Shown piece after piece: positions 3,255 through 20,370 of a stretch of DNA of 46,200 nt. The position numbers were made by a program, and so were the translations under genes. Every line of letters begins with the position of its first letter. Position 1 is the first letter of the stretch. The DNA is from Clostridiales bacterium (GTDB lineage Bacteria; Bacillota; Clostridia; Lachnospirales; Lachnospiraceae), in the NCBI GenBank assembly GCA_021201535.1, contig JAJQEU010000085.1, positions 1-46,200 of the forward strand. Direction: 5' to 3'. The notes below the pieces were generated by a model. It was not told where the DNA came from. It did not search any database and saw nothing but the letters and a program-made list of their open reading frames with translations.

Positions 3255-6200
3255 TTATTTTATAATATCCATCAGATAATCCGTATTTGCCAGCGGTTCA
3301 GCAAAAACATCATTCTTTACCGATATCAAAGCCATCTTCTCCGGCTTCAGCACACCGCCGATGACCTCACCCTCGGACGCTTCACGGTACCATGTCAGCT
3401 CTCCTGCCAGCTCACGTTCGATATCATCCTCTGTATCGTATGAAAACGGGATTTCCAGCGCCTCCGCCAGCTCGCAGATCAGCTGCCAGTTGTTCAGGCC
3501 GGCCTCCGGTTCCAGCGCCGCATGGGTCACCTGGAAACGTCGTTCGGTATTGATATAGCTTCCCTCTGCATGGATCGGAGCCGTGCCCGGCAGAATCACA
3601 TCCGCTCTGCGCGAAAGAGGTGTCAGATGCGTATCGCACACTGTCAGGAATTCCACGTCCTTCACAAGCGCGGGATCCGGGTTCTCACCGAGGACAAGAA
3701 GCGCTTTCACACCGTCCAGACACTCCGCGCCAGCCGTAATGCCCAGCTGCGTCAGTCCCTGGCTGTTGTTCTTCGGCTTCAGCATCACGATCCCGTCGCG
3801 CGGGCTTCCGATATGCCCGGAAAGAGCTGCGATGTCCGCGAGCAGTTCCGCACAGGGCACGGACACTGCATGCTGCTGGAACACGATCATAGCCTTTTTC
3901 GCCTTCTGATATAAACCGGCAATCTCCGCAGCCTCATCGGAGACAACCACATCCGCAACAGAATTCAGGAACGCATCATCCTCCTGTGAACCTGCCGCCG
4001 TGCCTTCTCCGGCCAGCGCTTTCGCGATCTGCTTTAAGAAATCCAGATTATTTTCTGTACAGACTGCTTTCGTCACAAATTCCATATGCGCCTGTTCATA
4101 TCCGACCGGATTGATGAGAATCACTTTCGCGCCCGCCTTCGCCGCCTGCATCAGCTTCACGCGCATCACCTGGTTAGCCTGCGCGTCAAAACCGACCGCC
4201 AGGATTACCTCCGTACCCATCAGCTCATCCATTGTATTCGGAGACGCGTTCAGACCGAGCACGGGTTCCAGCCCGCAGGCGCAGTTACTGAAGCTGAATA
4301 TCTTCGCACCCAGGCAGTCCGCCAGTTTTTTTGCCAGATAAGCTTCCTCCGTGGTAAACCGCGCAGATACTGCTATGGCGGCCGCGCCGCTGCCGTAACG
4401 GCGGGCAGTCGACTGCATGGATTTTGCAATCAGAACCAGAGCGTCATGATAGCTAACAGGGACAAATCCTTCTGCAGTTTTCTCATTTCCTTCCGTCTTC
4501 ATCATCGGAACGCATATCCTGTCCTCCTCCCGGCAAGCGCTTGAAAATCCGAATTTCCCGTTCACGCAGAGCACGCCCGCGCTCACCGGTCCGTCCGGAT
4601 CCGGAAGCGCCTTCACCGCCAGGCTGCCGCAGGTCTTGATCTTCTGTGAACAGCCCATGGAGCAGAAACCGCAGATCGTATCCGTCTCCTCTGTCTCAAG
4701 CGGAATCTGCTTCTTCATCGGGAGGTGCTCCTGCAGGGCGCCCGTCGGACAAATGCTGACACACTGCCCGCAGGAAATACAGCCGGTCTCTTCCAGATGC
4801 CTGCCCAGAGCCGGAAGCACCACCGTGTCAAACCCGCGGTTCACAAATCCGAGCGCGCCGACTCCCATGACTTCCTCACAGGCGCGGACACAGAGTCCGC
4901 ACAGGATACATTTGTTCGGATCCCGTTCAATGAAGGGATGAGGATCCTCAAACTCTGTTTTTTTGATCTCACCGGCAATGCGCTCCGGTTTCACATCATA
5001 CCGGTTCGCATAGGCCACGAGCTTACACTCAAAATAATCGCGGCACCCGCACTCCAGGCAGCGTGAAGCCTCCGCAGAAGCCTGCTCCGGCGTGAGTCCG
5101 CCTGCCACTTCCAGGAAGTTGTCCCTGCGCTCCTCCGGAGAAAGCTGCGGTATCTCCGGGCGGCACTGCCGCTCCCTGTCCTCAAAAGTCTTCTCCGTGA
5201 CGTCCTTTCGTTCCACGGTATACTCCGGCCTGTAAGCGACGGTTTTCCCTTCCAGGAAAGAGTCAACCACTTCGCTGCCCTTTTTCGCGTCCGCGATGGA
5301 CTCCACCGCGATGGATATCTTGTCGTTTCCGCAGTCGCCGCCGGCAAAAACGCCCGGAAGACTCGTCATAAAGGTCGCTTTATCGTAGATGATACCGTTC
5401 TTTTTTGTTAATTCCACACCGGTAATCCCATCGGGATCCACCGCCTGACCGATCGCAAGGATAACCATATCCACATCCAGTTCCTCGGTACAGCCCTCCA
5501 CGGGACGCGGGGAGCGCCTGCCGCTGGCATCCGGCTCGCCGAGTTCCATCACCTGCAGGGTTACGGAAGACACGCGTCCGTCTTCTCCCGCATGGATTTT
5601 TAAAGGATTGGTCAGGTTTTTGAAAATAACTCCTTCCTCCTGTGCCTCCCCGATCTCCATCCTGTCCGCCGGCATTTCATCGATCGTGCGACGGTAAACA
5701 TTATAAACTTTATCAGCGCCGAGACGGACCGCGCTGCGGCAGGCATCCATAGCCGTGTTGCCGCCGCCGACGACTGCTACCCGTCTGCCCATCTCAAAGG
5801 GTTCGTTCCGCTCGATCTTTCCGAGGAAATTGATGCCGCCGATTACGCCCGGGGTGTCCTCGCCCTCGCACCTCACGCCGGTGGATTTCCAGGCGCCGAT
5901 GCCGATGCACACCGCGTCATAATCCCTCCGGATGGATGCAAATGAAATATCCCTGCCGACCTTCGTGCCGGTGCAGATCTCCACGCCCATGTCCCGGATC
6001 AGCTGAACTTCCTCCTCCAGCACCGCCTTGGGGAGACGGTACTCCGGAATGCCGTAGCGCAGCATGCCGCCGGCATAGGGCATCGCCTCAAACACCGTGA
6101 CGGCATGCCCTTTCTGACGCAGGAAATAAGCCATGGACAGGCCGTATGGACCTGCGCCGATGATGGCGACAGTCTTCCCTGTGTCCTGGGCGCAGTCCGG

Positions 6201-6755
6201 CATGTAAGGATCCCCTTCCAGATCCAGGTCCCCGGCAAAGCGTTTCATGTTCGCAATAGAAACCGGCTCCTCGACCAGTCCGCGGCGGCATTCTGCCTCA
6301 CAGGGATGCGGGCACACGCGCCCGATGGATGCGGGGAGCGGGATCCGGTCTTTGATCAGTTCCAGCGCCTCCCGGTAACGTCCCTCCGCGATCAGGCCCA
6401 CATACCCCTGGCAGTCCGTCTGTGCCGGACATGCCTTCACGCACGGCGGGCGGCAGTCGCCCGCATGGTTCGAGAGCAGAAGCTCCAGATTTGTCTTTCT
6501 GGACTCCTCGATGCGCCTGCTTTTCGTGCGGATGACCATATTCGGCGCAACCTCCGTGGCACAGGATTTTAAAAGCTTCGGATTGCCCTCCGCCTCCACC
6601 ACACAGAGCCCGCAGGCCCCGTAAATCTCCATGCGCCCGTCATAACAGAGGGTCGGTATATAAATATCATTTTCTCTGGCCACCTCCAGGATCGTCTGTC
6701 CCGGCAGGGCAGTCACTTCTTTTCCGTCTATGTTGATTCTGTACTTTTTTACCAT
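3255..6755 (-). CDS. Large fused subunit of an Stn-type electron-bifurcating transhydrogenase: 2Fe-2S + GltD-like + ferredoxin + MopB-like
   Basis: A 1166-residue protein. Start ATG 6755 is set by AGGAGGG five bases upstream, overlapping the stop of the previous gene. The domains in order are: NuoG-type [2Fe-2S] (Cys37, 48, 51, 66); His/Cys cluster region (about 97-115); GltD/NfnB-like FAD and NAD(P) domain (about 120-510, with AIIGAGPYGLSMAY and VAVVGGGNTAMDA); a Cys cluster near 566-577; two [4Fe-4S] motifs (CILCGLCVRAC, CISCGQCVSIC); and a molybdopterin-oxidoreductase-like domain from about 690 (CGFCSMGC, VLCVNGKF). The last domain is short, lacks the C-terminal dinucleotide-binding domain, and has NCACG where formate dehydrogenases carry R-x-(C/U)-H, so formate oxidation is unlikely. 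With the two upstream genes it matches the architecture of the StnABC transhydrogenase of Sporomusa, which couples NADH, NADPH and ferredoxin. Confidence 0.8.
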   Translation of the reverse strand: MVKKYRINIDGKEVTALPGQTILEVARENDIYIPTLCYDGRMEIYGACGLCVVEAEGNPKLLKSCATEVAPNMVIRTKSRRIEESRKTNLELLLSNHAGDCRPPCVKACPAQTDCQGYVGLIAEGRYREALELIKDRIPLPASIGRVCPHPCEAECRRGLVEEPVSIANMKRFAGDLDLEGDPYMPDCAQDTGKTVAIIGAGPYGLSMAYFLRQKGHAVTVFEAMPYAGGMLRYGIPEYRLPKAVLEEEVQLIRDMGVEICTGTKVGRDISFASIRRDYDAVCIGIGAWKSTGVRCEGEDTPGVIGGINFLGKIERNEPFEMGRRVAVVGGGNTAMDACRSAVRLGADKVYNVYRRTIDEMPADRMEIGEAQEEGVIFKNLTNPLKIHAGEDGRVSSVTLQVMELGEPDASGRRSPRPVEGCTEELDVDMVILAIGQAVDPDGITGVELTKKNGIIYDKATFMTSLPGVFAGGDCGNDKISIAVESIADAKKGSEVVDSFLEGKTVAYRPEYTVERKDVTEKTFEDRERQCRPEIPQLSPEERRDNFLEVAGGLTPEQASAEASRCLECGCRDYFECKLVAYANRYDVKPERIAGEIKKTEFEDPHPFIERDPNKCILCGLCVRACEEVMGVGALGFVNRGFDTVVLPALGRHLEETGCISCGQCVSICPTGALQEHLPMKKQIPLETEETDTICGFCSMGCSQKIKTCGSLAVKALPDPDGPVSAGVLCVNGKFGFSSACREEDRICVPMMKTEGNEKTAEGFVPVSYHDALVLIAKSMQSTARRYGSGAAAIAVSARFTTEEAYLAKKLADCLGAKIFSFSNCACGLEPVLGLNASPNTMDELMGTEVILAVGFDAQANQVMRVKLMQAAKAGAKVILINPVGYEQAHMEFVTKAVCTENNLDFLKQIAKALAGEGTAAGSQEDDAFLNSVADVVVSDEAAEIAGLYQKAKKAMIVFQQHAVSVPCAELLADIAALSGHIGSPRDGIVMLKPKNNSQGLTQLGITAGAECLDGVKALLVLGENPDPALVKDVEFLTVCDTHLTPLSRRADVILPGTAPIHAEGSYINTERRFQVTHAALEPEAGLNNWQLICELAEALEIPFSYDTEDDIERELAGELTWYREASEGEVIGGVLKPEKMALISVKNDVFAEPLANTDYLMDIIK

Positions 6756-6765
6756 GTCTGCCCTC

Positions 6766-8520
6766 CTACTGAATCTCGATCGCGCCAAACCGGCAGTTTT
6801 CCGCACATCTGCCGCACTTAACGCATTTGGCCGGGTCGATTGTATGCTGATTTTTTACAGTTCCGCTGATGGCGTCCACCGGACAGTTCCGGGCACAGAG
6901 CGTGCATCCGACGCACTTGTCGGTAATCCTGTACGAAATCAGGGCTTTACATGATTTTGCGGTACATTTATGGTGATAAATATGATCCTCATACTCGTTC
7001 CTGAAATACCGCAGGGTAGTCAGAACCGGGTTCGGCGCCGTCTGTCCCAGGCCGCACATGGCGCCGTCGCGCACTTTCAGAGCCAGTTCTTCCAGAAGCT
7101 CAATGTCGCCGTCGCGGCCTTCGCCGTTTGTAATGCGCTCCAGTATCTCCAGCATCCGCCGGGTTCCCAGCCTGCAGTAATTGCACTTGCCGCAGGACTC
7201 CTTCCGCGTGAAATCCAGAAAATACCGGGCCATGTCCACCATACAGGTGTCTTCGTCCATAACGATCATGCCGCCGGATCCGACGATGGCTCCCGTCTTG
7301 TTGATATGCTCGTAGGAAACCGGTGTGTCAATCAGCTCCGCCGGAATACACCCGCCGGAAGGTCCGCCCATCTGAACGGCCTTGAACGTCTTGCCGTTCT
7401 TGATGCCGCCTCCGGTCTTATAGATCACATCCTTTAATGTCAGGCCCATCGGCACCTCGACCAGGCCGCCCTTTTGTATCTTGCCGGCCAGGGCAAACAC
7501 CTTCGTGCCATTGCTCTGATCCGTGCCGTAGGCGGCAAACGCCCCTCCGCCGCTGCGGATGATCCACGGCACATTGGCATAGGTTTCTACATTATTGATA
7601 TTCGTCGGCTTCTGCCAGTAGCCCTTCTGCGCCGGGAACGGCGGTTTTAATCGAGGCATCCCGCGCTCGCCCTCGAGGGACGCGATCAGCGCCGTCTCCT
7701 CTCCGCAGACAAACGCCCCGGCACCCGCCTTGATCCGTATATCAAAATCCCGGTCTGTCCCGAAATTTTTCTTCCCGAGAAATCCTTTTTCGCGCGCCTG
7801 CTCCAGAGCGGTCTCCAGACGTTCGATAGCCAGCGGGTATTCAGCGCGAACATAGATCACGCCCTCGCAGGCGCCCATGGCGTAGCCGCCGATGAGCATG
7901 CCCTCCAGCACAGCGTTCGGGTCGCCCTCCAGGACGCTCCGGTCCATGAAAGCGCCCGGGTCGCCCTCGTCAGCATTACAGACTATGTATTTTTCCGTCC
8001 CCTCACTCTGACGGGCCGCGTTCCATTTAAACCAGGTCGGAAATCCCGCACCGCCGCGGCCGCGCAGGCCGGAAAGTCTGATTTCCGCGATGACCTCTTC
8101 GGGCGTCATCTCTGTCAGAGCCTTCCGGGCGGCCTCATAGCCGTCCTGTTCTATGTAATCTTCAATACGCTCCGGATTGATCCGCCCGCAGTTCTGCAGG
8201 ACGATCCGCTTCTGATTGGAGAGAATGGCCGCATCCTCTTCGGAGATGGCCTGGTTGCCGCATACTTCACCACCGACCAGATGTCTGTCAACAATAGGGG
8301 AAACGTCTTTCGGCTGTACCTTCACATAGCGTGCCTGCAGTATACCGTCATTCCCGTAGACATCCACGATCGGCTCCAGATAACAGGCGCCGATGCACCC
8401 CGTCTTGTCCAGGACGACATCCGCCAGGCCGCGCTCCGTAATCTGCTTTCTGAATTCCGCCTCCGTCTTTTTCGCGCCGCCGGCAATCCCGCAGCTTCCC
8501 TGTCCGATCACTACCCTCAT
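6766..8520 (-). CDS. NuoF/HydB-like FMN, NADH-binding iron-sulfur subunit (StnB-like)
   Basis: A 584-residue protein of the HydB/HndC/StnB size class. The N-terminus is a thioredoxin-like [2Fe-2S] domain (Cys10, and CIGACYLEP near 42-50). Next comes the NuoF core with the glycine-rich NADH/FMN loop GRGGAGFPTWFKW and the GDPGAFMDRSVLEGDP motif, an SLBB segment, and the [4Fe-4S] site CGKCNYCRLGTRRM. The C-terminus carries two ferredoxin clusters (CVGCTLCARNC and CVKCGRCAENC). This is the flavin subunit expected to carry out electron bifurcation with NADH. Its ATG overlaps the upstream subunit stop by four bases, and its stop overlaps the ribosome site of the downstream fused subunit, so the three are translationally coupled. 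Confidence 0.92.
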   Translation of the reverse strand: MRVVIGQGSCGIAGGAKKTEAEFRKQITERGLADVVLDKTGCIGACYLEPIVDVYGNDGILQARYVKVQPKDVSPIVDRHLVGGEVCGNQAISEEDAAILSNQKRIVLQNCGRINPERIEDYIEQDGYEAARKALTEMTPEEVIAEIRLSGLRGRGGAGFPTWFKWNAARQSEGTEKYIVCNADEGDPGAFMDRSVLEGDPNAVLEGMLIGGYAMGACEGVIYVRAEYPLAIERLETALEQAREKGFLGKKNFGTDRDFDIRIKAGAGAFVCGEETALIASLEGERGMPRLKPPFPAQKGYWQKPTNINNVETYANVPWIIRSGGGAFAAYGTDQSNGTKVFALAGKIQKGGLVEVPMGLTLKDVIYKTGGGIKNGKTFKAVQMGGPSGGCIPAELIDTPVSYEHINKTGAIVGSGGMIVMDEDTCMVDMARYFLDFTRKESCGKCNYCRLGTRRMLEILERITNGEGRDGDIELLEELALKVRDGAMCGLGQTAPNPVLTTLRYFRNEYEDHIYHHKCTAKSCKALISYRITDKCVGCTLCARNCPVDAISGTVKNQHTIDPAKCVKCGRCAENCRFGAIEIQ

Positions 8521-9047
8521 ACCGGCACCTCCCTCTTTTCCCCGGCCCGGATCTCTTCAAGGATCTTCACCACGGAATCCTTCGTCAGATTGCCATAGGT
8601 CTCCTCCCCGTCCGCGCTCTTGATCATCATGACCGGCGCGAGAGAACAGCAGCCGAGACAGGCCACATTATTTAATGTGAATATCCCGTCCTCCGTCGTC
8701 TCTCCATCCTGTACGCACAGATATTCGCTGACCGCCTCCTGTATGCGGTCAGCGCCGTTGACATGACAGGCCGTGCCCTTGCACAGCATGATCAGATATT
8801 TTCCGATCGGTGTCAGGCGGAACTGTGCGTAAAAAGTGGCGACGCCGTAAATCCGCGCCGGCCGGATGCCGGTTTTGTCGGATATGTAATCGATGACTTC
8901 CGGCGACAGATAACCATAGATATCCTGCGCACGCTGCAGGATCGTAATCAGGCTGCCCGGTACCGGAGCATATTTTTCCAGCGTCGGCGCCAGCAGTGTG
9001 AAATCCTGTCCGGTCTCCGGCGCGGGAATCCTGTTTTCTGAAATCAT
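8517..9047 (-). CDS. NuoE/HydC-like [2Fe-2S] subunit (StnC-like)
   Basis: A 176-residue thioredoxin-like ferredoxin subunit. A helical N-terminus (LITILQRAQDIYGYLSPEVI) is followed by GVATFYAQFRL and the four cluster cysteines in CKGTACHVNGA and CLGCCSLAP. This is the first gene of the three-gene redox operon; AAAGGGG precedes the ATG by 8 bases. In HydABC, Hnd and Stn complexes this subunit passes electrons to and from the flavin subunit. The 146-base upstream gap holds no strong promoter that I can identify, so transcription may come from folD or from a weak local promoter. Confidence 0.92.
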   Translation of the reverse strand: MISENRIPAPETGQDFTLLAPTLEKYAPVPGSLITILQRAQDIYGYLSPEVIDYISDKTGIRPARIYGVATFYAQFRLTPIGKYLIMLCKGTACHVNGADRIQEAVSEYLCVQDGETTEDGIFTLNNVACLGCCSLAPVMMIKSADGEETYGNLTKDSVVKILEEIRAGEKREVPV

Positions 9048-9193: not shown

Positions 9194-10051
9194 TTAAACA
9201 GCGTTGAATGCCTTCGCCGCCTCCACAACATGGGAAATCAGCACAGCGGTTGTCACCGCGCCGACGCCTCCCGGTACGGGAGTCAGCGAATCCACCATCG
9301 GTTCCACCTCCTCAGCACACACATCTCCGCAGAGTTTACCCTTGTCCTCATTCCAGGCGATTCCGACATCAATCACGACCTGTCCTTCCCGCACATACGC
9401 CCCGTTGACGCTCTCCATCTGTCCGGAGCAGGCAATGACAATATCCGCCTCCCGGGTGATGGACGGTATGTCCGGCGTCCGGGTATGGCAGGTGACGACC
9501 GTCGCGTTTTCATGCATCAGCATCATGGAGACCGGGCGCCCGACTACCAGGGAGCGCCCGATCACCGCCGCTTTTTTCCCGGCACAGCTTACCCCGTAAA
9601 ATTTCAGAATCTCCATCGCCGCCTGCGCGGTACAAGGGGAGAATCCGATCCGCGTATTCGTGAAAACACCTGCCAGAGAAGCGTCCGTGCAGCCATCCAC
9701 ATCCTTTGCCGGACTCAGCAGTCTGCGCGCCCTCTCCTCATCCAGGTGTCCCGGAAGCGGCCGGAACATCAGGATGCCATGCACGCTGTCGTCCGTATTC
9801 AGATCCTCCAATACAGAAAAAAATGTATCGCTGTCCACATCCTCCGGAAGCGCAACGCTGCGCACGGCCACTCCCACCGAATCGCAGCGTTTCACGGCTC
9901 CCCGCTCATAGGAAAGGTCGTCATCTCTCTCGCCGACACGCAGAATCGCAAGCGTCGGTGTGACACCTGTCGTCCTCAGTCTCTCAATGTCCTGCTTCAT
10001 CTTTTCACTCAGAGCCGCCGCCACCGGCGCGCCTTTTAACAATATCGCCAT
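9194..10051 (-). CDS. folD: FolD-type methylene-THF dehydrogenase, cyclohydrolase residues missing
   Basis: 285 residues, the usual FolD length. ATG 10051 was chosen because it gives the canonical N-terminus and lies after a GGAGAAGG site; an upstream ATG at 10078 is possible. Family marks are VDGCTDASLAGVFTN, VIGRSLVVGRPVSMML (NADP loop), and TPVPGGVGAVTTAVL. Aligned on Tyr48 (the Tyr of Y-x3-K), the catalytic Lys is Ala52, and the Gln of the VQLPLP motif is Phe96 (MFRPLP). The Asp of KDVDG (Asp119) is retained. Lys and Gln are needed for cyclohydrolase activity in human and E. coli enzymes, so this protein is probably a dehydrogenase only. The neighbouring FchA-type enzyme could supply the missing step. 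It lies downstream of that gene by 126 bases. Confidence 0.9.
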   Translation of the reverse strand: MAILLKGAPVAAALSEKMKQDIERLRTTGVTPTLAILRVGERDDDLSYERGAVKRCDSVGVAVRSVALPEDVDSDTFFSVLEDLNTDDSVHGILMFRPLPGHLDEERARRLLSPAKDVDGCTDASLAGVFTNTRIGFSPCTAQAAMEILKFYGVSCAGKKAAVIGRSLVVGRPVSMMLMHENATVVTCHTRTPDIPSITREADIVIACSGQMESVNGAYVREGQVVIDVGIAWNEDKGKLCGDVCAEEVEPMVDSLTPVPGGVGAVTTAVLISHVVEAAKAFNAV

Positions 10052-10177
10052 CCCTGCTTTTCCTTCTCCTCTATTCATACCCTTCTGTACTGATTCCCGA
10101 ACCAATGAATCTGCCGTGTCTTTGCAGTCTGTGCGGATTCCCCATCGGTTCTTCTTTCAAAACAGAAGACAGTCCCA

Positions 10178-10801
10178 TTATGCCGGTCTGATTTTCTCCA
10201 GGACACTCTCATAAACCCGGTCTGCCCGAATCATATACTCCTCCAGCAGATCATCCGCCCGACGTTCCAGCTCTGCCGCGTATTTCCTGTCCCGCATGGA
10301 TTTTGTGTTGATAAAAACATTCAGAGAAGCACCCTGAAGAGCAGCCTTACAGCAGACGGCACCGACGCCGGCGTCAGAAACGGCGATCCTTGATCCTTTT
10401 GCGGCAAAGCCTTCCAGAAGCTCGATTGCCTGACAGATCTGGGACATCAAAGCCAGCGGCGCATCACAGGCTTTTCGAAGCGCTTCCTCCATCACCGCCG
10501 GGCGGAAAGGATCATTCTTCGGAATACCATAGGCCTTTGAGAGAGGCAGAAATGCCTCAGCGTCCGCATCCATACCGCACAGCAGTTCCTCGCGCAGCAC
10601 TGACGCCTGTTTCATCCATACCCGCATCTCGTCCTCCACGTCTGCATAAGTCTTCTTCCCGACCGTCAGGGAACCGACCATGTTTCCGAGGGCAATCCCG
10701 ACTGCCGCGACCAGCGCGCCGGCTCCGCCCCCGCCGGGAACCGCTTCCTTAGAGGCGAGCGCCTGCGTAAAATCATCCAGGGTATATTCCTTAAAACTCA
10801 T
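10178..10801 (-). CDS. FchA-type methenyl-THF cyclohydrolase / formimino-THF cyclodeaminase
   Basis: A 207-residue all-helical protein of the cyclodeaminase/cyclohydrolase family. The hallmark PGGGGAGALVAAVG occurs at residues 22-35, with GNMVGSLTVGKK after it and a long C-terminal helix of Arg/Glu repeats. Family members either deaminate 5-formimino-THF or hydrolyse 5,10-methenyl-THF (FchA). No histidine-degradation genes (hutH, hutU, hutI) or formimidoyltransferase are nearby, while folD and a transhydrogenase follow, so the cyclohydrolase role in C1 metabolism is favoured. ATG 10801 has AAGGAG nine bases upstream. Probably co-transcribed with folD. Confidence 0.85.
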   Translation of the reverse strand: MSFKEYTLDDFTQALASKEAVPGGGGAGALVAAVGIALGNMVGSLTVGKKTYADVEDEMRVWMKQASVLREELLCGMDADAEAFLPLSKAYGIPKNDPFRPAVMEEALRKACDAPLALMSQICQAIELLEGFAAKGSRIAVSDAGVGAVCCKAALQGASLNVFINTKSMRDRKYAAELERRADDLLEEYMIRADRVYESVLEKIRPA

Positions 10802-10867: not shown

Positions 10868-11968
10868 TCATTCTGCTTCTGTAAAGGAAATCGTTCCGTC
10901 ATATATTTTTTCCAGAAACTCTTCTTTCCCAAACAGCCGAATCAGCTGAAGCATCCCGTATGCGTAATCTTCTCTGTCCTTATAATAGATAACCGCTGTT
11001 TTCTTTCCTGCCAAGAGCAGGCGGATCAGCTCATCATCCTCCTCCGGAAAAGAATATCCGAAAAAATGAAGTACGGCCGGAACTTCAGCTCCGTCCCTGT
11101 CCACGGGAAAAATCCGCTTCTGATCCGGCACACCGATAAAATTCATCAGCTTCCGAAAATAATTTTTCATATATATCCAGTCCGCGTGATCGTCCGACTC
11201 ATCCGGACTGCCGAGGACCAGGTTCACCGGACTGCTTCCGGCCTTTCCCTTTGCATAAAAAATACAGTCCTCCGTCACCCCGTACATCCTGATCGTATCC
11301 GTAAAATTAAAATTGATGACATAGTCCGGATGTATCATCTCGATCTGAGAGGAGCGAATTTCAGTGTCTCCCGCGGAGGCGGACGCATCCTCTTTCAAAC
11401 GTCCGCTGCCATGCTCCTGCATCACACAGTTCACCATATAAAGATCCAGAGCCTCCGTAAAGCTGTCCAGTTCCCGACGGGTCTCATTCACCACAGCCTT
11501 CTTATTCAGCTGCTTTTCCGGCGTGATATACTGCTGACGGATTTTAAACAGGCCGCCCGACGGGTCGTCATAAATCTGCTCAAAGATCCTCGCAAAATGC
11601 TTATAAATCTGCAGATCACCGTAGGTAAACTCCCCGCAGATCATATTATAGCTGATCAGGTCATATTCCGGATTCTTCTGTTTTTCCAGCACGACATCCT
11701 GAAAATGAATCAGCGCATCAACAATCCTTTTCATTTCCTTCTCAAAATAAGCCCATGTCGGATCCTCTGACAGGGTAAAATGAAAATGGCGGAAAAAACC
11801 GTTGACATTGCAGAGCTCCGTCAAGCGCGTCTCAAACCATCCACGCTGTTCTTTTTTCTTCGCAAAAGCGTCCTCCACGCAACGAACAAAATCCATATAA
11901 GCGGTTTTTCGCCCGTGATACAGGTCAAATCCGTTTCCGGTTACCAGTATATTCTGTACTTTACTCAT
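10868..11968 (-). CDS. AbiH-family abortive infection protein
   Basis: A 366-residue soluble protein opening with NILVTGNGFDLYHGRKTAY, the signature N-terminus of AbiH (GNGFDL-x-HG-x-x-T-x-Y). A second conserved segment is YVINFNFTDTIRMYG, and HFFGYSFPEEDDELIRLLL near residue 320 is the typical G-H/Y-S-x-x-x-x-D motif of the C-terminal half. AbiH proteins block phage growth by an unknown mechanism. AAGGAG lies before ATG 11968. It sits alone between purine nucleoside phosphorylase and the C1 genes, and no other defence gene touches it, consistent with lateral gain of a single cargo gene. Confidence 0.82.
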   Translation of the reverse strand: MSKVQNILVTGNGFDLYHGRKTAYMDFVRCVEDAFAKKKEQRGWFETRLTELCNVNGFFRHFHFTLSEDPTWAYFEKEMKRIVDALIHFQDVVLEKQKNPEYDLISYNMICGEFTYGDLQIYKHFARIFEQIYDDPSGGLFKIRQQYITPEKQLNKKAVVNETRRELDSFTEALDLYMVNCVMQEHGSGRLKEDASASAGDTEIRSSQIEMIHPDYVINFNFTDTIRMYGVTEDCIFYAKGKAGSSPVNLVLGSPDESDDHADWIYMKNYFRKLMNFIGVPDQKRIFPVDRDGAEVPAVLHFFGYSFPEEDDELIRLLLAGKKTAVIYYKDREDYAYGMLQLIRLFGKEEFLEKIYDGTISFTEAE

Positions 11969-12795: not shown

Positions 12796-14400
12796 TTAAA
12801 GGGAAAAATCAAACATTCTGTAAGAAGAAAAATGTTCTTTTTTATAATTCAGCAGAAATCCCGTAAATTTCGCCTGTCCGGCACGGCCAAAAATCTCCAG
12901 ACTTTCCTCGATATTATCTTCCGTAAAAAATCCGAGCTCCGCCAGCTGCACCAGCTGTTCCATGTCGTGTGATTTCTGAATGCACTGCAAAATATCCATG
13001 AGACGATCCGCAACAAAAGAACGGTATCTGTCCGCGGAATCGGCATCCAGAAATGCCGGATATTTTAACCTGCAACAGGCCATGCCGCATCGGTCCAAAA
13101 GATTTAAATACGTGTCAAACAGAGCGTCATACCCTCTGTAATCATATATATATCCCTCAAAGGGATCGGAACGGGAGATATGTTTCAGATGTGAGGGGGC
13201 TGTGTACGCAAAAATGTTCCATTTTTCCGGCATGGCAAACGGGTCAAAAGCATGATCCGCCATTTCCCTCGTCAGTTCTGCTTCACGGGAATAAAACAAT
13301 CCGACGATCTCATCCTTCCGGTACACCGGCCGCATGGGTACATAAATCACCGCGCCGGTCTCCTCCAGTTCCAGCCGTTCCAGTTCCTTACACTCCCGGA
13401 ATGCATCCGTTCCGACATCCTTCACGGAAACAGGTACAAAACAGCTTCGCAAAGCCGCGCGACGAAAGGCTCCCGGCAAGATCCGGCTCACGTCCCCCGG
13501 AATCCGGTACTCCCGGCTCCGGCCAAAATATTTCACCAGATATCTGTCCTTATCATGCCCGATTTCGAACAAAGCATCCGCATCCGCCATAAAATGTGCA
13601 TTCTCATCAGCCACTGTAATACATTCCAGTCCGCGCAGTTCCTCGCTCCACCCGAACGTATCCGACAGGGCGCGGCAACCGATTCTTTCAACCGAGGCAG
13701 GCAGATGCAGCTGTCTCAGGCAAATGCAGTGGCTGAACGCGTTGGCTCTGACATCACGGACTCCCTCCCGTAATATCACTTCCGTCAAATTCTGGCACCC
13801 TTCAAAAGCCGCTTCGCCAATCGTATGTACGGAAGACGGCAGGATCACCTTCCGGAGCACCGCGTTGCCGGACAGCGCATTCTCACCGATCACGGTTGTC
13901 CCATCCGGAATCTCATACTCTGTCCGTTCCTCTGTCTGACGGGCAGTCAACAGTTCCGTCTCCGATCCCTCTCTCCTGTACAGACAGAATCCATCCGTGA
14001 AAAAATACGGATTCCCGGCCGCCACATGAAAGCGAACCGTACTCAGTTCCCAGGGATTTTCGATCACCTTCAACGAAGCCGGCAACGTCAGTTCCTCAAT
14101 AGGCGTCAGGAAAAAAGCGTCTCTCCCAATCCATTCCAGCCCGTCAGGCAAAAGCAGTTCCGTCAGACTGATACACATCCGAAACGCACCGTTTCCAATC
14201 CGGCGGACGGTCGACGGAACCTCGATCCGGCCGAGCTGCGCGCCGTTCTCCGAGAAAGCCTCTCTGCCAATCTCCGTCACCGGAAGACTGTTGATATGCG
14301 AGGGAATGCACAGGGAGAGTCCGGGAAGATCATCCGGAAAATAGCCTGTAATCACAACTCCCTCTTGAGTCAGGTCATAACTGTAATTTCTGTACCGCAT
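12796..14400 (-). CDS. BspA-like leucine-rich repeat protein with helical C-terminus, VWA-MoxR partner
   Basis: A 534-residue protein without signal peptide or membrane span. Residues about 30-340 form LRR_5 (BspA-like) repeats of about 23 residues, e.g. VTEIGREAFSENGAQLGRI, VRRIGNGAFRMCISLTEL and VHTIGEAAFEGCQNLTEV. Residues about 400-534 are helical and end in an ankyrin-like pair (LAELGFFTEDNIEESL, then AGQAKFTGFLLNYK). LRR_5 proteins are usually secreted surface proteins, so a cytoplasmic one is notable. Its ATG overlaps the MoxR stop by 26 bases, so it is the last gene of a three-gene cassette. It may act as a recognition or scaffolding module. Function unknown. Confidence 0.8.
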   Translation of the reverse strand: MRYRNYSYDLTQEGVVITGYFPDDLPGLSLCIPSHINSLPVTEIGREAFSENGAQLGRIEVPSTVRRIGNGAFRMCISLTELLLPDGLEWIGRDAFFLTPIEELTLPASLKVIENPWELSTVRFHVAAGNPYFFTDGFCLYRREGSETELLTARQTEERTEYEIPDGTTVIGENALSGNAVLRKVILPSSVHTIGEAAFEGCQNLTEVILREGVRDVRANAFSHCICLRQLHLPASVERIGCRALSDTFGWSEELRGLECITVADENAHFMADADALFEIGHDKDRYLVKYFGRSREYRIPGDVSRILPGAFRRAALRSCFVPVSVKDVGTDAFRECKELERLELEETGAVIYVPMRPVYRKDEIVGLFYSREAELTREMADHAFDPFAMPEKWNIFAYTAPSHLKHISRSDPFEGYIYDYRGYDALFDTYLNLLDRCGMACCRLKYPAFLDADSADRYRSFVADRLMDILQCIQKSHDMEQLVQLAELGFFTEDNIEESLEIFGRAGQAKFTGFLLNYKKEHFSSYRMFDFSL

Positions 14401-15898
14401 CCTCTATTTCCTGCTGTCTCTCATAAATCTGAAACTTTTTATTGTATTTCTCATACTCCTCACAGCCGCAGCGTGCGATAAACGCTGCACTGTCGTAGTT
14501 TACGGTGAGATCGGTCACCAGCACAAGCATCTCGTTCCCCGCGCCGAAAGTCTTCTCCACAAAAGAAAACAGATTGGACAGCTTTTCTCTGATTCCGGCG
14601 CGCACCGCCTTCATCTGCGCCACTTCCCCGTCAAAACGCTCCCTGATCAGATCAAGCACATCCTTCGGCCGGATCACACGCCTCATATGAATCGCTTTGG
14701 CGTCCCGATGCAACGCCTCGATCACCATCTGAAACTCTTTTTTCTCAATCTCACTGAGGGAACCGGCTTCATCCTCACAGACAATCCGACTTTCCAGAAA
14801 CTCCCACTTTGTCCGCAGAATATTCAGACAACTCTCCATATCCCACTGTTTCAAATCCTCCAGCTCTTTTTTCACCTCTTTCAGTGTCAGCAGCTGCTTC
14901 CGCAGTGCATCCTCCAGCTGAATGTTATCCCGGATTTCCATCTGTATCGCGTCCAGTAAAAGTCCGACCAGAGAAAGCCGCTCGTCAAATCCCGCCATTT
15001 TTGCCCTGTTGTACACATCCGCGCCGGCCTGTCCGGACAGGATCTGATGTACACGGTAATCCTTTTTATACTTTTGATACAGATCGTAGTAAGCGGCGAA
15101 CTCCCGACAGATCCGCTTATTGCGGAGATACTGACCAACCAGTATCTCATCCACCTCAAAATCATTCTCCTCATACAGATAAATCGTCTCAGACAGATCT
15201 TCCCAGCCGCGGGCCGTCACATAGGATTTGCCGTCCACCGTGTTCTCGATCACATAAAAGTCATTCTTTTTGATATCCAGATAAGTGATGACAGACCCGT
15301 GGATCCCCCGGTTCACTGCATAATTTCTCCATGTATCGTAATCCGCTTCAACCTCCAGCAGCTTCATCCGATCCATCGTCACCACGTCAAACTCCCGGAC
15401 GGAACGGTTGAACTGGGGCGGATTTCCCGCTGTGGCCACCACCCATCCCTCCGGCACGCGATGCTTTCCGAATGTCTTGTACTGCAGGAACTGCAGCATG
15501 GAAGGAGCAAGTGTCTCTGAAACACAGTTGATCTCATCCAAAAAAAGGATGCCCTCCTGCTTGCCGGTTCTCTCCATCATCTCATACACGGAAGCAATAA
15601 TCTCACTCATCGTATACTCAGACACGTCAAATTCAGTGCCGCCGTAATTTTTATGGCTGATAAACGGAAGTCCCAGCGCACTCTGTCTGGTATGATGTGT
15701 CATAGAATAGGACACCAGCGCGAGATTCATCTCCTCAGCGATCTGTTCCATAATCGCAGTCTTGCCGATTCCCGGCGCCCCGAGCAGAAAAACCGGACGC
15801 TGCCGCGCGATCGGAATGCGATAATTACCGTAAGGATCCTTCGCCAGATATATTTTTACTGCCTTTTCAATCTGTTCCTTTGCTTCCTGTATATTCAT
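14375..15898 (-). CDS. MoxR-type AAA+ ATPase
   Basis: 507 residues. The AAA+ core at 1-300 has Walker A GAPGIGKT (40-47), Walker B ILFLDEIN (Asp121-Glu122), sensor 1 VVATAGNPPQFN, and arginine-rich helices typical of MoxR. The C-terminal 200 residues are helical and Lys/Glu-rich. MoxR ATPases remodel or activate partner proteins that carry VWA domains, often in metal-centre assembly, stress or phage defence. The gene begins nine bases after the VWA gene stop, with AGGAGAGGG before the ATG, and overlaps the LRR gene start, so the cassette is a tight operon. Confidence 0.9.
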   Translation of the reverse strand: MNIQEAKEQIEKAVKIYLAKDPYGNYRIPIARQRPVFLLGAPGIGKTAIMEQIAEEMNLALVSYSMTHHTRQSALGLPFISHKNYGGTEFDVSEYTMSEIIASVYEMMERTGKQEGILFLDEINCVSETLAPSMLQFLQYKTFGKHRVPEGWVVATAGNPPQFNRSVREFDVVTMDRMKLLEVEADYDTWRNYAVNRGIHGSVITYLDIKKNDFYVIENTVDGKSYVTARGWEDLSETIYLYEENDFEVDEILVGQYLRNKRICREFAAYYDLYQKYKKDYRVHQILSGQAGADVYNRAKMAGFDERLSLVGLLLDAIQMEIRDNIQLEDALRKQLLTLKEVKKELEDLKQWDMESCLNILRTKWEFLESRIVCEDEAGSLSEIEKKEFQMVIEALHRDAKAIHMRRVIRPKDVLDLIRERFDGEVAQMKAVRAGIREKLSNLFSFVEKTFGAGNEMLVLVTDLTVNYDSAAFIARCGCEEYEKYNKKFQIYERQQEIEDAVQKLQL

Positions 15899-15907
15899 AA
15901 CCCTCTC

Positions 15908-17353
15908 CTATATCTCATCTTCACGTAGTACAAGCCGGATTGCCCAGGGGGGCGTCTCCGGGACTGCAAAACCATCCTCAATAAAAACAAAGGCAGTCTC
16001 ATAATCCGGCGCATGCTCCGGGAACGTCCCCTTCCCATCGGTGAAATAGATAAGTCCGCGCAGATTCTGAAACTCATGCCGGTCGATCAGACCGTCCACA
16101 TACTCAAACACCGGCCGGAAATCCGTCCCGCCAAAGCCCGAAAGCTGCACATCCTGCATATAGGCGTCAAACTCCTCGTCCGTCGTCACCTTTATATCCC
16201 GCTGGATTTTGGAATCACACTGGATGATGTGGATATTTACCCGTTTAAAATAGCTCTCCGTATTTTTCAGAATATCATAGGTCTTGCGCAGGAACCGCTC
16301 CACAGCGGCTCCCTGACAGGAGCCTGATGTGTCCAGCGCGATGACAAACTCACGGATACGCTTCGTCTCCCGGTACTCCAGCGGCTCCACCAGCGGCATG
16401 TTCTTATACAGCTTCAGTCCGTAGGTGTAATAAATATAATCAAACTCGTCATCGTTGATATGCATCTCCTCGCCGAGCACCGCAAACTTTTTCAGAAACT
16501 CACCGTAATCATGCTTCTCGCGCAATGTCTCCTGCAGATTCCACAGGAGGCTGCCGGCGCCGAATCCCTGCTCTCTGGAAAATGTCTCAATATCCAGCTT
16601 CGCATGCTGACTGACATCCGCCCAGTCGTCCTGAGTCTGTCCGACCAGCGCCTCGTCGATATCCTCCGCCTGTTCGCCCTCCTCGCCGGTATCCGCCTCA
16701 TGGCATCCGACCATGGCTGTCCTCGTGTCGGTCGTCAGCGTATCCCCCGTCCGATCCGCCACATCTGTCTCCTTTTTGGGAATCCAGTGCAGATGATCGT
16801 CCTGCTCAAACAGCCCGGCCAGTTCCAGATACATCTCTGCTTTCTCCGGCGTATCCAGCAGGAAACGGTAGATTCGCTCAGCGGTCAGGACCGGGATATC
16901 CTCCGCCAGGCGATCCAGCTCTCTCTCCCGTTTTTTATCATCGTCCAGCCGGACTTCCGCCAGCCGCAGATCAAGGAGCGCCTTCTCCACCGCGATATCA
17001 CAGGCCAGATCCCAGCACGCGCGGTCAAGCTTCTCATACTGAAACGGATGACTGAAAATACAGTGAAAAATCATATGGAGAAAAGCTCTCGTGCAGCGGT
17101 TCTTCTCCTGCTGAAAGGAGCGAAGCACATGATCCGTATTGTAATAGATCTCCCTCCCGTTCACACCGTAGGTCGCGACCGTATCCGCCGGTATCATCGG
17201 CATGCGAAACAAAGCCCGATCCAGGAAGCGCATGGAGATCATCAGCTGATCCCGGGCAAAAGTCATGATCTCAGCTGCCACTTCCCTGTGTTTCGCCTTC
17301 TCTATGTCCTGCGCATCCATGATGTTGCGCGCATCCTCTGTCAGCTTCGGCAT
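15908..17353 (-). CDS. DUF2201-type putative metallopeptidase/VWA-like protein
   Basis: 481 residues, no signal peptide. The N-terminal domain carries His93-x3-His97-x4-His102 (HMIFHCIFSH), which corresponds to the HExxH-like motif of DUF2201 proteins but with Met where the catalytic Glu is expected, so peptidase activity is doubtful. An acidic linker lies at about 200-260. The C-terminal VWA domain has a complete MIDAS: DTSGSC, Gly-Thr-Asp in GFGGTDF, and FTDGKG. First gene of the VWA-MoxR-LRR cassette; GGAGGAG precedes ATG 17353. VWA/MoxR pairs work as ATPase plus metal-binding adaptor. Confidence 0.85.
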   Translation of the reverse strand: MPKLTEDARNIMDAQDIEKAKHREVAAEIMTFARDQLMISMRFLDRALFRMPMIPADTVATYGVNGREIYYNTDHVLRSFQQEKNRCTRAFLHMIFHCIFSHPFQYEKLDRACWDLACDIAVEKALLDLRLAEVRLDDDKKRERELDRLAEDIPVLTAERIYRFLLDTPEKAEMYLELAGLFEQDDHLHWIPKKETDVADRTGDTLTTDTRTAMVGCHEADTGEEGEQAEDIDEALVGQTQDDWADVSQHAKLDIETFSREQGFGAGSLLWNLQETLREKHDYGEFLKKFAVLGEEMHINDDEFDYIYYTYGLKLYKNMPLVEPLEYRETKRIREFVIALDTSGSCQGAAVERFLRKTYDILKNTESYFKRVNIHIIQCDSKIQRDIKVTTDEEFDAYMQDVQLSGFGGTDFRPVFEYVDGLIDRHEFQNLRGLIYFTDGKGTFPEHAPDYETAFVFIEDGFAVPETPPWAIRLVLREDEI

Positions 17354-17625: not shown

Positions 17626-19709
17626 TCAGTTGATCATAAAAAAGTTTTGTGCCAGAAGCGGTTCCGCGCTGCCGGGCTGAACACGTGTATAACTGCCGTC
17701 TGCCCGCTGAATGCGTGCCTTTACATTATCCTCCATCAGGACACGGAAAATTCGCAGCACCCGGTCCCGGATCTCCGGATCAAGGAGCGGAGCCGCCACC
17801 TCCACCCGGTATGTCGTATTTCTCGTCATAAAATCCGCGGAAGCGATGTACACCTCCGGATCCTCATCGCCGAAAATATAAATACGAGAATGCTCCAGAT
17901 ACCGTCCGACAATACTCCGTATGGAAATATTGTCCGTCTTGCCCGGAACGCCGGCGATCAGGCAGCAGGCACCGCGCACGATCAGTTCGATCCGCACACC
18001 CGCCTGGGAAGCCTCAATCATTTTCTCAATGAGAACCTTGTCTGTCAGGGAGTTCATCTTCGCGCCGATATAAGCGCTCACGCCGGCCTTCGCGCGTGCG
18101 ATCTGACGATCCATCTTCTCCAGAATCGGTTTGCGCAGGTACTTCGGGGCAACCAGCAGATAGTCTGCCTGCTCCACCACCTCACCGAGATACATTCTGG
18201 TAAATATCCGGCTCGCCTCCGCACCGATGCTCTGATGCGCCGTCATCAGAGAGAAATCCGTATACAGCCGGGAGGTCTTTTCATTGTAGTTGCCCGTCCC
18301 GATCTGCGTAATATAGGAAATATGGTCGCCGGTCTTCTTCGTGATCAGGCAAAGCTTGGAATGCACCTTGAGCCTGTCCAACCCGTAGAGTACGGAACAG
18401 CCAGCCTCCTCCAGTCGCCTGGACCAGCTGATATTGTTCTCCTCGTCGAAACGCGCCCGCAGCTCTACCAGTACACTGATATCCTTGCCGTTCTCCGCGG
18501 CGCGCAGCAACGCCTCGACCACTTTGCTGTCATTCGCCACACGGTACAGCGTCATTTTCATGGAAACGACGTCCGGATTGTCAGCCGCTTCCCGCAACAG
18601 CGTAAGAAACGGATCAATGCTCTCATATGGGAAGAACAGAAATCGGTCTTTCTCCTCGATCTGCTCCATCATGCTGCGCTCCGGGTCGATATCCGCCGGA
18701 AACTGCGGCGTATATTTTTCATAAAACAGATCCTTTTCATTGCGCAGAATATCACGAATCGTCGAGAAGAAGGAGAGATCCAGCGGCGAAGCAGAATGGA
18801 ATACATGCCGTTTCTTCAGGTGCAGATATTTACAGAGCAGATCGATGACAGACTCATCCATCACCCTGGTATACTCCAGCTTAATCGGGCAGAGTCTGCG
18901 CCGTCGGCTGACCAGCTGTTCCATCACCTGACGGAAATCCATATCGTCGTCATACATTTCCTCGTCCGGATCAATATCCGCATTCCGCAGGATGCGGATC
19001 AGCGATTTGCTTTTGATCTCGAAATGAGAAAATATCCGTGACACATAATGCAGGATCAGCTCCTCCATCAGAATATACCGGTTCGGATGATCCGGAATCC
19101 GCGCCAGACGCGGAAGCACGTCCAGCGTACACGGGACAATCCCCAGCTTGACATTCTTATCATTTTTTTGTCATTCTTTTTATCATTCTTTCTGTCATTT
19201 TTAGAATTCTTCTTCGAGCCCAGAATGACCACCGCATAGATCGCCTTGTTTTTCAAAAAAGGAAACGGCTGTTTCTTTCCAACAACCTGCGGCGCCAGAA
19301 GCGGTCGAATCTCATGTTCGAAATACGCGTCCAGAAACTGCGCGTCCTTCGCGTCAATCTGGTCGTGATACGTCACAATCTCAACGCCGTGTTCCCGCAT
19401 TCCCTTATTCAGGGCGGCATATGCGGAATCCTTCCGCTGTGTCAGAAGCTTTACCTGATCAAAGCAGGCAAAAATCTGTTCCTGACAGGTCATGTTCGTC
19501 TTGTTGTCCCGGATGTCCTTCGAGACAAGCATCTGGTCATACAGCGAACCGACCCGCACGCCGAAAAACTCATCCAGATTGCTCTGGAAAATTGACGCGA
19601 ACGACAGTCTCTCGCAGAAAGGATTCGTCTCATCCTCCGCTTCCTCCAATACACGGACGTTAAACTTCAGCCAGGACAATTCTCTGTTGTCAAAACACGT
19701 ATGTTCCAT
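17626..19709 (-). CDS. ppk1: Polyphosphate kinase 1, interrupted by a one-base frameshift in an A7 run
   Basis: ATP-polyphosphate phosphotransferase, present as two frames. The N-terminal part (ATG 19709, preceded by GAGGGGGAG) carries NRELSWLKFNVRVLEEA and SNLDEFFGVRVGSL, and runs until the repeat at 19151-19208. The C-terminal part then continues in another frame from VKLGIVPCTLDVLPRLARI to the stop at 17626. It carries both conserved histidines (VHSKLCLI, the phosphorylated His, and LEHSRIYIF) and YNEKTSRLYTDFSL. Adding one A to the A7 run at 19163-19169 joins the frames into 694 residues, the normal Ppk1 length. A -1 ribosomal slip there gives the same product. Alternatives are mutation, phase variation or sequencing error. 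It follows relQ by 19 bases. Confidence 0.85.
19151..19208 (-). repeat. 12-base tandem repeat in ppk1 coding K-N-D-K/R units
   Basis: The minus strand shows about four imperfect copies of a 12-mer (AAGAATGACAAA type) encoding Lys-Asn-Asp-Lys/Arg. The A7 run that breaks the ppk1 frame lies in the third to fourth copy (19163-19169). Ppk1 relatives normally go straight from the VVILxSK strand to LGIVPC without this insert. Confidence 0.8.
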
Positions 19710-19728
19710 AAAACACTCCCCCTCTTCT

Positions 19729-20370
19729 TTACAGCCGGTCGATATTCTTTCGAATCCGCAAAAACTTTTTATCGATATCTGCGATCTCAATTGCGCAGGT
19801 CTTCAGTTCCTTCTGCATTTTCTGAAACTTTGCCTCATCCATCTTTTTATTCTTATAGCTGAGCTGATGATCCAACATCGCCCAGTAATTCATGGCCGCC
19901 GATCGAACCTGAATCTCCATGCGAATCGGGGTGCCGATGGACGGAACCTCCGCGATCATATGAATACTCCGGTATCCGGTCTGTTTCGGATGAGCGATAT
20001 AGTCTTTCACCTTTATAAACTTCAATCCGGGCAGTTTCCGAATCTCCTTCATCACATGATAAACGTCATCCTGAAATGAGCATACCACCCGGATGCCCGC
20101 CATATCGTGAAGGGTCTCCACTGCTTTCTGAAGCGTCCCGCTTCGTCCCTTGCGGATCAGCTTGTTATAAATACTGTCCGGCGTCTTCACCCTGGAAGAA
20201 ATATACTGCACCACCTGGCGGTCATACTCTGCATCAACCTGCGCGGCTATTTCCTCCAGCATCGGAGTCACCATCTCGATCATCTGTTCGCAAACACGCA
20301 CCAGACCGGCCTGTTCATATTCAGATAGTAACTTTTCCCGATCATCGATCATGTCTGCTTCTTTTTCCAT
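19729..20370 (-). CDS. relQ: Small alarmone synthetase, RelQ-like GTP pyrophosphokinase
   Basis: 213 residues from ATG 20370; an upstream in-frame ATG at 20382 has no usable spacing. The single RelA/SpoT synthetase domain has GIRVVCSFQDDVYHV, YIAHPKQTGYRSIHMI (the G-Y-R-S-H substrate loop) and EIQVRSAAMNYWAMLDHQLSYK. No HD hydrolase, TGS or ACT domain is present, so it should make, not degrade, (p)ppGpp, as RelQ of Firmicutes does. The C-terminal helices match the tetramer-forming tail. It stands 19 bases before ppk1 and probably shares its transcript, which would couple alarmone and polyphosphate synthesis. Confidence 0.92.
   Translation of the reverse strand: MEKEADMIDDREKLLSEYEQAGLVRVCEQMIEMVTPMLEEIAAQVDAEYDRQVVQYISSRVKTPDSIYNKLIRKGRSGTLQKAVETLHDMAGIRVVCSFQDDVYHVMKEIRKLPGLKFIKVKDYIAHPKQTGYRSIHMIAEVPSIGTPIRMEIQVRSAAMNYWAMLDHQLSYKNKKMDEAKFQKMQKELKTCAIEIADIDKKFLRIRKNIDRL

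Follow-up and report, generated by a model that had tools for sequence, protein, structure and literature searches.

The question raised by this locus is whether a FolD protein that lacks the cyclohydrolase Lys and its partner Gln still catalyzes two reactions of folate metabolism, or whether the second reaction has passed to the FchA-type enzyme encoded beside it. Within the window, that is, the whole 46,200-nucleotide stretch of DNA analyzed here, the gene for the FolD-like methylene-THF dehydrogenase occupies positions 9194..10051 on the minus strand, where a plausible ribosome site precedes an ATG start and the translation comprises 285 aa. Both Pfam domains, PF00763 and PF02882, score well above their cut-offs and are complete or nearly so, which indicates a complete FolD. 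The residues listed in the first-pass annotation, Y48, A52, F96 and D119, were recovered at exactly those positions of the translation, and HMMER alignments to FolD/MTHFD crystal structures contain no gaps around either motif. In these alignments, SYERGAVKRC of the query faces Y-I-N-V-K of human MTHFD1 (1a4i), with A52 opposite human Lys56, and ILMFRPLP faces FLVQLPL, with F96 opposite human Gln100; KDVDG is kept. The two residues required of a bifunctional FolD, the Lys of YxxxK and the Gln of VQLPLP, are thus replaced by A52 and F96. Among the matches listed, no NCBIfam 'bifunctional' equivalog cut-off was reached by this protein, the best score being 239 of 333 bits.

In the FolD cyclohydrolase reaction, general acid/base catalysis falls to the Lys, which is held in place by the Gln (PMC3338484), so that the loss of both predicts the loss of cyclohydrolase activity. 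Lys56 and Gln100 are also said to aid the dehydrogenase step and hydride transfer (PMC3368264), and the double change could therefore weaken the dehydrogenase. The earlier statement that Lys mutants lose cyclohydrolase and not dehydrogenase activity consequently holds for the cyclohydrolase role of the Lys (PMC3338484) and is less secure in its second half, since a Lys that also supports the dehydrogenase step (PMC3368264) means that retained dehydrogenase activity is not given by Lys mutants alone. The same contribution to hydride transfer (PMC3368264) would favor a FolD that is impaired in both reactions and serves some other role, leaving FchA as the sole active enzyme of the pair. We regard this as highly improbable, because the protein is the only FolD in its genome and keeps the Tyr, the Asp and the NAD(P) domain, and because the fhs-fchA-folD genes of C. 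autoethanogenum have been assigned to the Wood-Ljungdahl pathway and used as an E. coli module (PMC9618320, PMC9040625). Retention of the Tyr, the Asp and the NAD(P) domain, together with precedent, suggests instead that dehydrogenase activity persists despite the K->A and Q->F changes. Having a catalytic and an NAD(P) domain along with the Tyr and the Asp, lacking the Lys, and accompanied by a separate FchA in the genome, the protein resembles the clostridial dehydrogenase-only FolD type, and it is predicted from its sequence to be a dehydrogenase without cyclohydrolase function.

Directly upstream of FolD and on the same strand lies the gene for an FchA-type methenyl-THF cyclohydrolase (PF04961; 10178..10801, minus), identified by its Pfam match, a solved relative and conserved positions. 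The product is a stand-alone PF04961 protein of 207 aa (202.6 bits), the length expected of a stand-alone FchA (~207 aa), and its nearest solved structure is the methenyl-THF cyclohydrolase 7vg4. Comparison of 30 FchA proteins whose genes lie close to FolD or in the fetched locus that contains it yielded 14 conserved positions, and this protein keeps every one. The cut-off of the NCBIfam FchA equivalog NF045657 was not reached (182.5 of 275 bits), yet this was the sole family matched. At 93.8% completeness, the 2.77 Mb genome (128 contigs) contains a single FolD, a single FchA and one Fhs, the latter on another contig than the window. A genome-wide domain search found no FTCD_N (formiminotransferase), which places this FchA outside a formiminotransferase or histidine degradation route; a role in formiminoglutamate breakdown is thus unlikely, and cyclohydrolase is the natural reading. 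Two observations that could have overturned the first-pass proposal were a second canonical FolD in the genome and an FchA acting only on formimino-THF. One FolD only was found, in a genome whose 94% completeness means that a second could sit in a gap, and the absence of FTCD_N leaves no formiminoglutamate route.

The wider surroundings include an AbiH-like protein (PF14253, abortive infection) at 10868-11968 (minus), directly upstream of fchA, and an AAA/MoxR-type ATPase beside a DUF2201 VWA protein at 14375-17353 (minus). Polyphosphate kinase 1 (17626-19790, minus) is encoded in two overlapping frames, with the N part at 19068-19790 and the C part at 17626-19119; the split represents a frameshift, a pseudogene or a sequencing error. 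A scan of the window for Rfam families, riboswitches included, gave no match.

If FchA supplies the missing step, loss of the Lys should track the presence of FchA, a co-occurrence check that had been suggested at the outset and whose outcome was near-perfect. Across a class sample of 166 genomes, in which FolD residues were read from the fetched DNA and FchA was defined as PF04961 over its cut-off, a Lys-less FolD was present in 57 of the 60 FchA-bearing genomes, with A, I, L, V or Q at the Lys position. The other three comprise one genome (G048) with a Lys-containing FolD only and two with no FolD found. Genomes without FchA never carried a Lys-less FolD (0/106); 100 of these 106 had a FolD with both Lys and Gln, and six had no FolD. 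The Fisher p value for FchA against Lys loss, ~1e-42, is inflated by shared ancestry. Both kinds of FolD occur within each of six families (f1, f6, f14, f35, f37 and f52), always matched by FchA; of 52 Lys-less genomes, 28 have FchA immediately beside FolD and in the same orientation. G048, which has an FchA homologue and no FTCD_N, is a counter-example to the rule; its PF04961 protein (L171:7151-7774, minus) is encoded near ABC-transporter and cysteine-synthase-like genes. A further candidate exception, G003, was ruled out: in addition to a Lys-containing FolD, it encodes a Lys-less FolD beside FchA (loci L073 and L169).

The same partition is seen at closer range. Among 20 sampled genomes of the genus, including the window's own, 17 have FchA and a Lys-less FolD, and the three without FchA keep both Lys and Gln; that all 20 obey the rule without exception is more than chance. 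In the whole sample of relatives (38 genomes with FolD, G052 included), FolD is Lys-less in 22 of the 23 genomes with FchA and retains the Lys in all 15 without it. The single exception, G202, retains the Lys; a distance of 1.7 kb separates its PF04961 gene from a gene for FTCD_N, an arrangement that suits a formimino-THF cyclodeaminase better than an FchA working with FolD. Another relative, G203, has FchA and both a Lys-containing and a Lys-less FolD (L287 and L288); this genome and G003, each combining the two kinds of FolD with FchA, possibly represent transitional states. An odd Ile/Glu version of FolD occurs in G198.

The Lys-less proteins fall into two groups. The window FolD belongs to a large one in which Lys is replaced by Ala, Ile, Leu or Val and Gln by Phe, Leu or Met, most members reading YE[RK] and FRPLP; in the second, found in Clostridium, Lys is replaced by Gln and the second Gln is mostly kept. 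Named relatives with the latter type, identified by a contig scan that did not place C. perfringens among them, include C. cadaveris and C. uliginosum. Very divergent Lys-less FolDs were also observed in three FchA-bearing genomes of family f29 (L166 in G080, L167 in G027 and L168 in G102); one of these proteins scores under the Pfam cut-off. The new conserved residues that A-type FolDs share near the lost Lys and Gln, mostly as YE[RK] and FRPLP, are what would be expected if FolD were still bifunctional by means of substitutes, e.g. the conserved Glu49 and Arg97, with FchA being accessory or acting on formimino-THF. This explanation appears quite unlikely, as Lys loss follows FchA almost perfectly, the genome has no FTCD_N, the Lys-retaining exception at the order level (G202) has its FchA homologue beside FTCD_N, and the FolD of C. 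perfringens is said to be dehydrogenase-only. A division of the two reactions between FolD and FchA is the reading that we retain.

Regarding the origin of this division, a branch of modest support (84-86) sets all Lys-less rows of reduced trees apart from the rest, several long branches meet, and the full FolD tree requires three changes. The Lys-less FolDs may constitute a single ancient subfamily that was inherited, or transferred, along with FchA, and repeated independent losses of the Lys are also conceivable. Because the Lys-less proteins may form one ancient clade, the co-occurrence counts are not independent events. A more speculative scenario, which we consider doubtful, is that an ancient Lys-less subfamily with replacement active-site residues of its own (YE[RK], FRPLP) and FchA spread together and repeatedly replaced bifunctional FolD, with methenyl-THF handed over directly from FolD to FchA.

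The three genes after FolD (3255-9047, minus) form a single run that encodes a NuoE-like subunit, a NuoF-like subunit and a GltD-NuoG fusion, and match the Sporomusa-type electron-bifurcating transhydrogenase StnABC, for which structure 8oh5 represents the S. ovata complex (PMC7483475, PMC10482914). The putative StnA (8517..9047) neighbors FolD in 10 of the 17 congeners with a Lys-less FolD; the putative StnB (6766..8520; 584 aa) matches 8oh5 chain B over its full length with 881.7 bits, and the putative StnC (3255..6806; up to 1183 aa) matches chain C over residues 20-1141 with 991 bits. NADPH, NADH and ferredoxin are the partners that Stn couples, and in S. ovata the methylene-THF dehydrogenase depends on NADP (PMC7483475, PMC10482914). 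Outside the genus, Stn was next to FolD in no other sampled genome of the class (154 genomes, flanks of ~3 kb or less). This sample had suggested an adjacency unique to the window, which was refuted by the 10 of 17 congeners in which Stn adjoins FolD; its presence in the genus and absence from other class genomes mark it as a local trait and not as part of the general split. The transhydrogenase for redox balance in the first-pass annotation is accordingly Stn-like by sequence, and its metabolic connection to the folate enzymes would be a plausible extension.

Taken together, the locus of this anaerobic bacterium very probably encodes a split form of the FolD reactions, with two neighboring enzymes and redox balance provided by Stn. 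This two-enzyme model, already put forward in the first-pass annotation, is well supported by the residues, the single gene copies and the co-occurrence; the activities, cofactor specificity and coupling to Stn are inferred. FolD would interconvert methylene-THF and methenyl-THF with NAD(P) and carry out no further step; FchA would interconvert methenyl-THF and 10-formyl-THF, which the Fhs encoded elsewhere in the genome would link to formate; and the adjacent Stn complex would balance NADPH, NADH and ferredoxin. Annotation family models call such Lys-less FolDs bifunctional, and a single FolD residue predicts the presence of the second enzyme across the class, with cyclohydrolase loss as the probable corollary. 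This matters for metabolic models, for the choice of C1-pathway enzymes and for antifolate work, given that FolD inhibitors would hit a different reaction set in these bacteria. The two FolD states within one genus offer a ready natural comparison.

The split FolD/FchA system is already established, with C. perfringens and the acetogens as precedents. According to Aluri et al. in 2016, C. perfringens FolD is reportedly dehydrogenase-only, FchA supplying the cyclohydrolase; as in the window's genome, separate dehydrogenase and cyclohydrolase enzymes are accompanied by Fhs. The class-wide and nearly all-or-none partition of FchA and Lys-less FolD may be new; a partial literature search found no paper on it. 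In acetogens, fhs, fchA and folD are all present and have been given separate activities (PMC9040625, PMC9618320), and a 1982 reference cited in PMC13391211 covers the purification of a methenyl-THF cyclohydrolase from C. formicoaceticum. In C. autoethanogenum (CAETHG_RS07850-07840), as in the window, FchA adjoins FolD and two separate activities are named, a comparison that concerns gene order and not FolD residues. The window differs from the acetogen fhs-fchA-folD cluster in that Fhs is encoded on a different contig of its genome and that the genes after FolD are those of Stn. Clostridium FolDs, a set without C. perfringens, mostly show Lys->Gln with the Gln mostly kept, as opposed to Lys->Ala and Gln->Phe in the window. 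The StnABC of Sporomusa ovata likewise has NuoE, NuoF and GltD-NuoG subunits in one run, but is located downstream of metVF, whereas the window Stn is linked to fchA-folD. Finally, the window FolD shares with bifunctional FolD and MTHFD1 both Pfam domains, the Tyr, the Asp and the NAD(P)-binding domain, and differs from them in lacking the catalytic Lys and its partner Gln.
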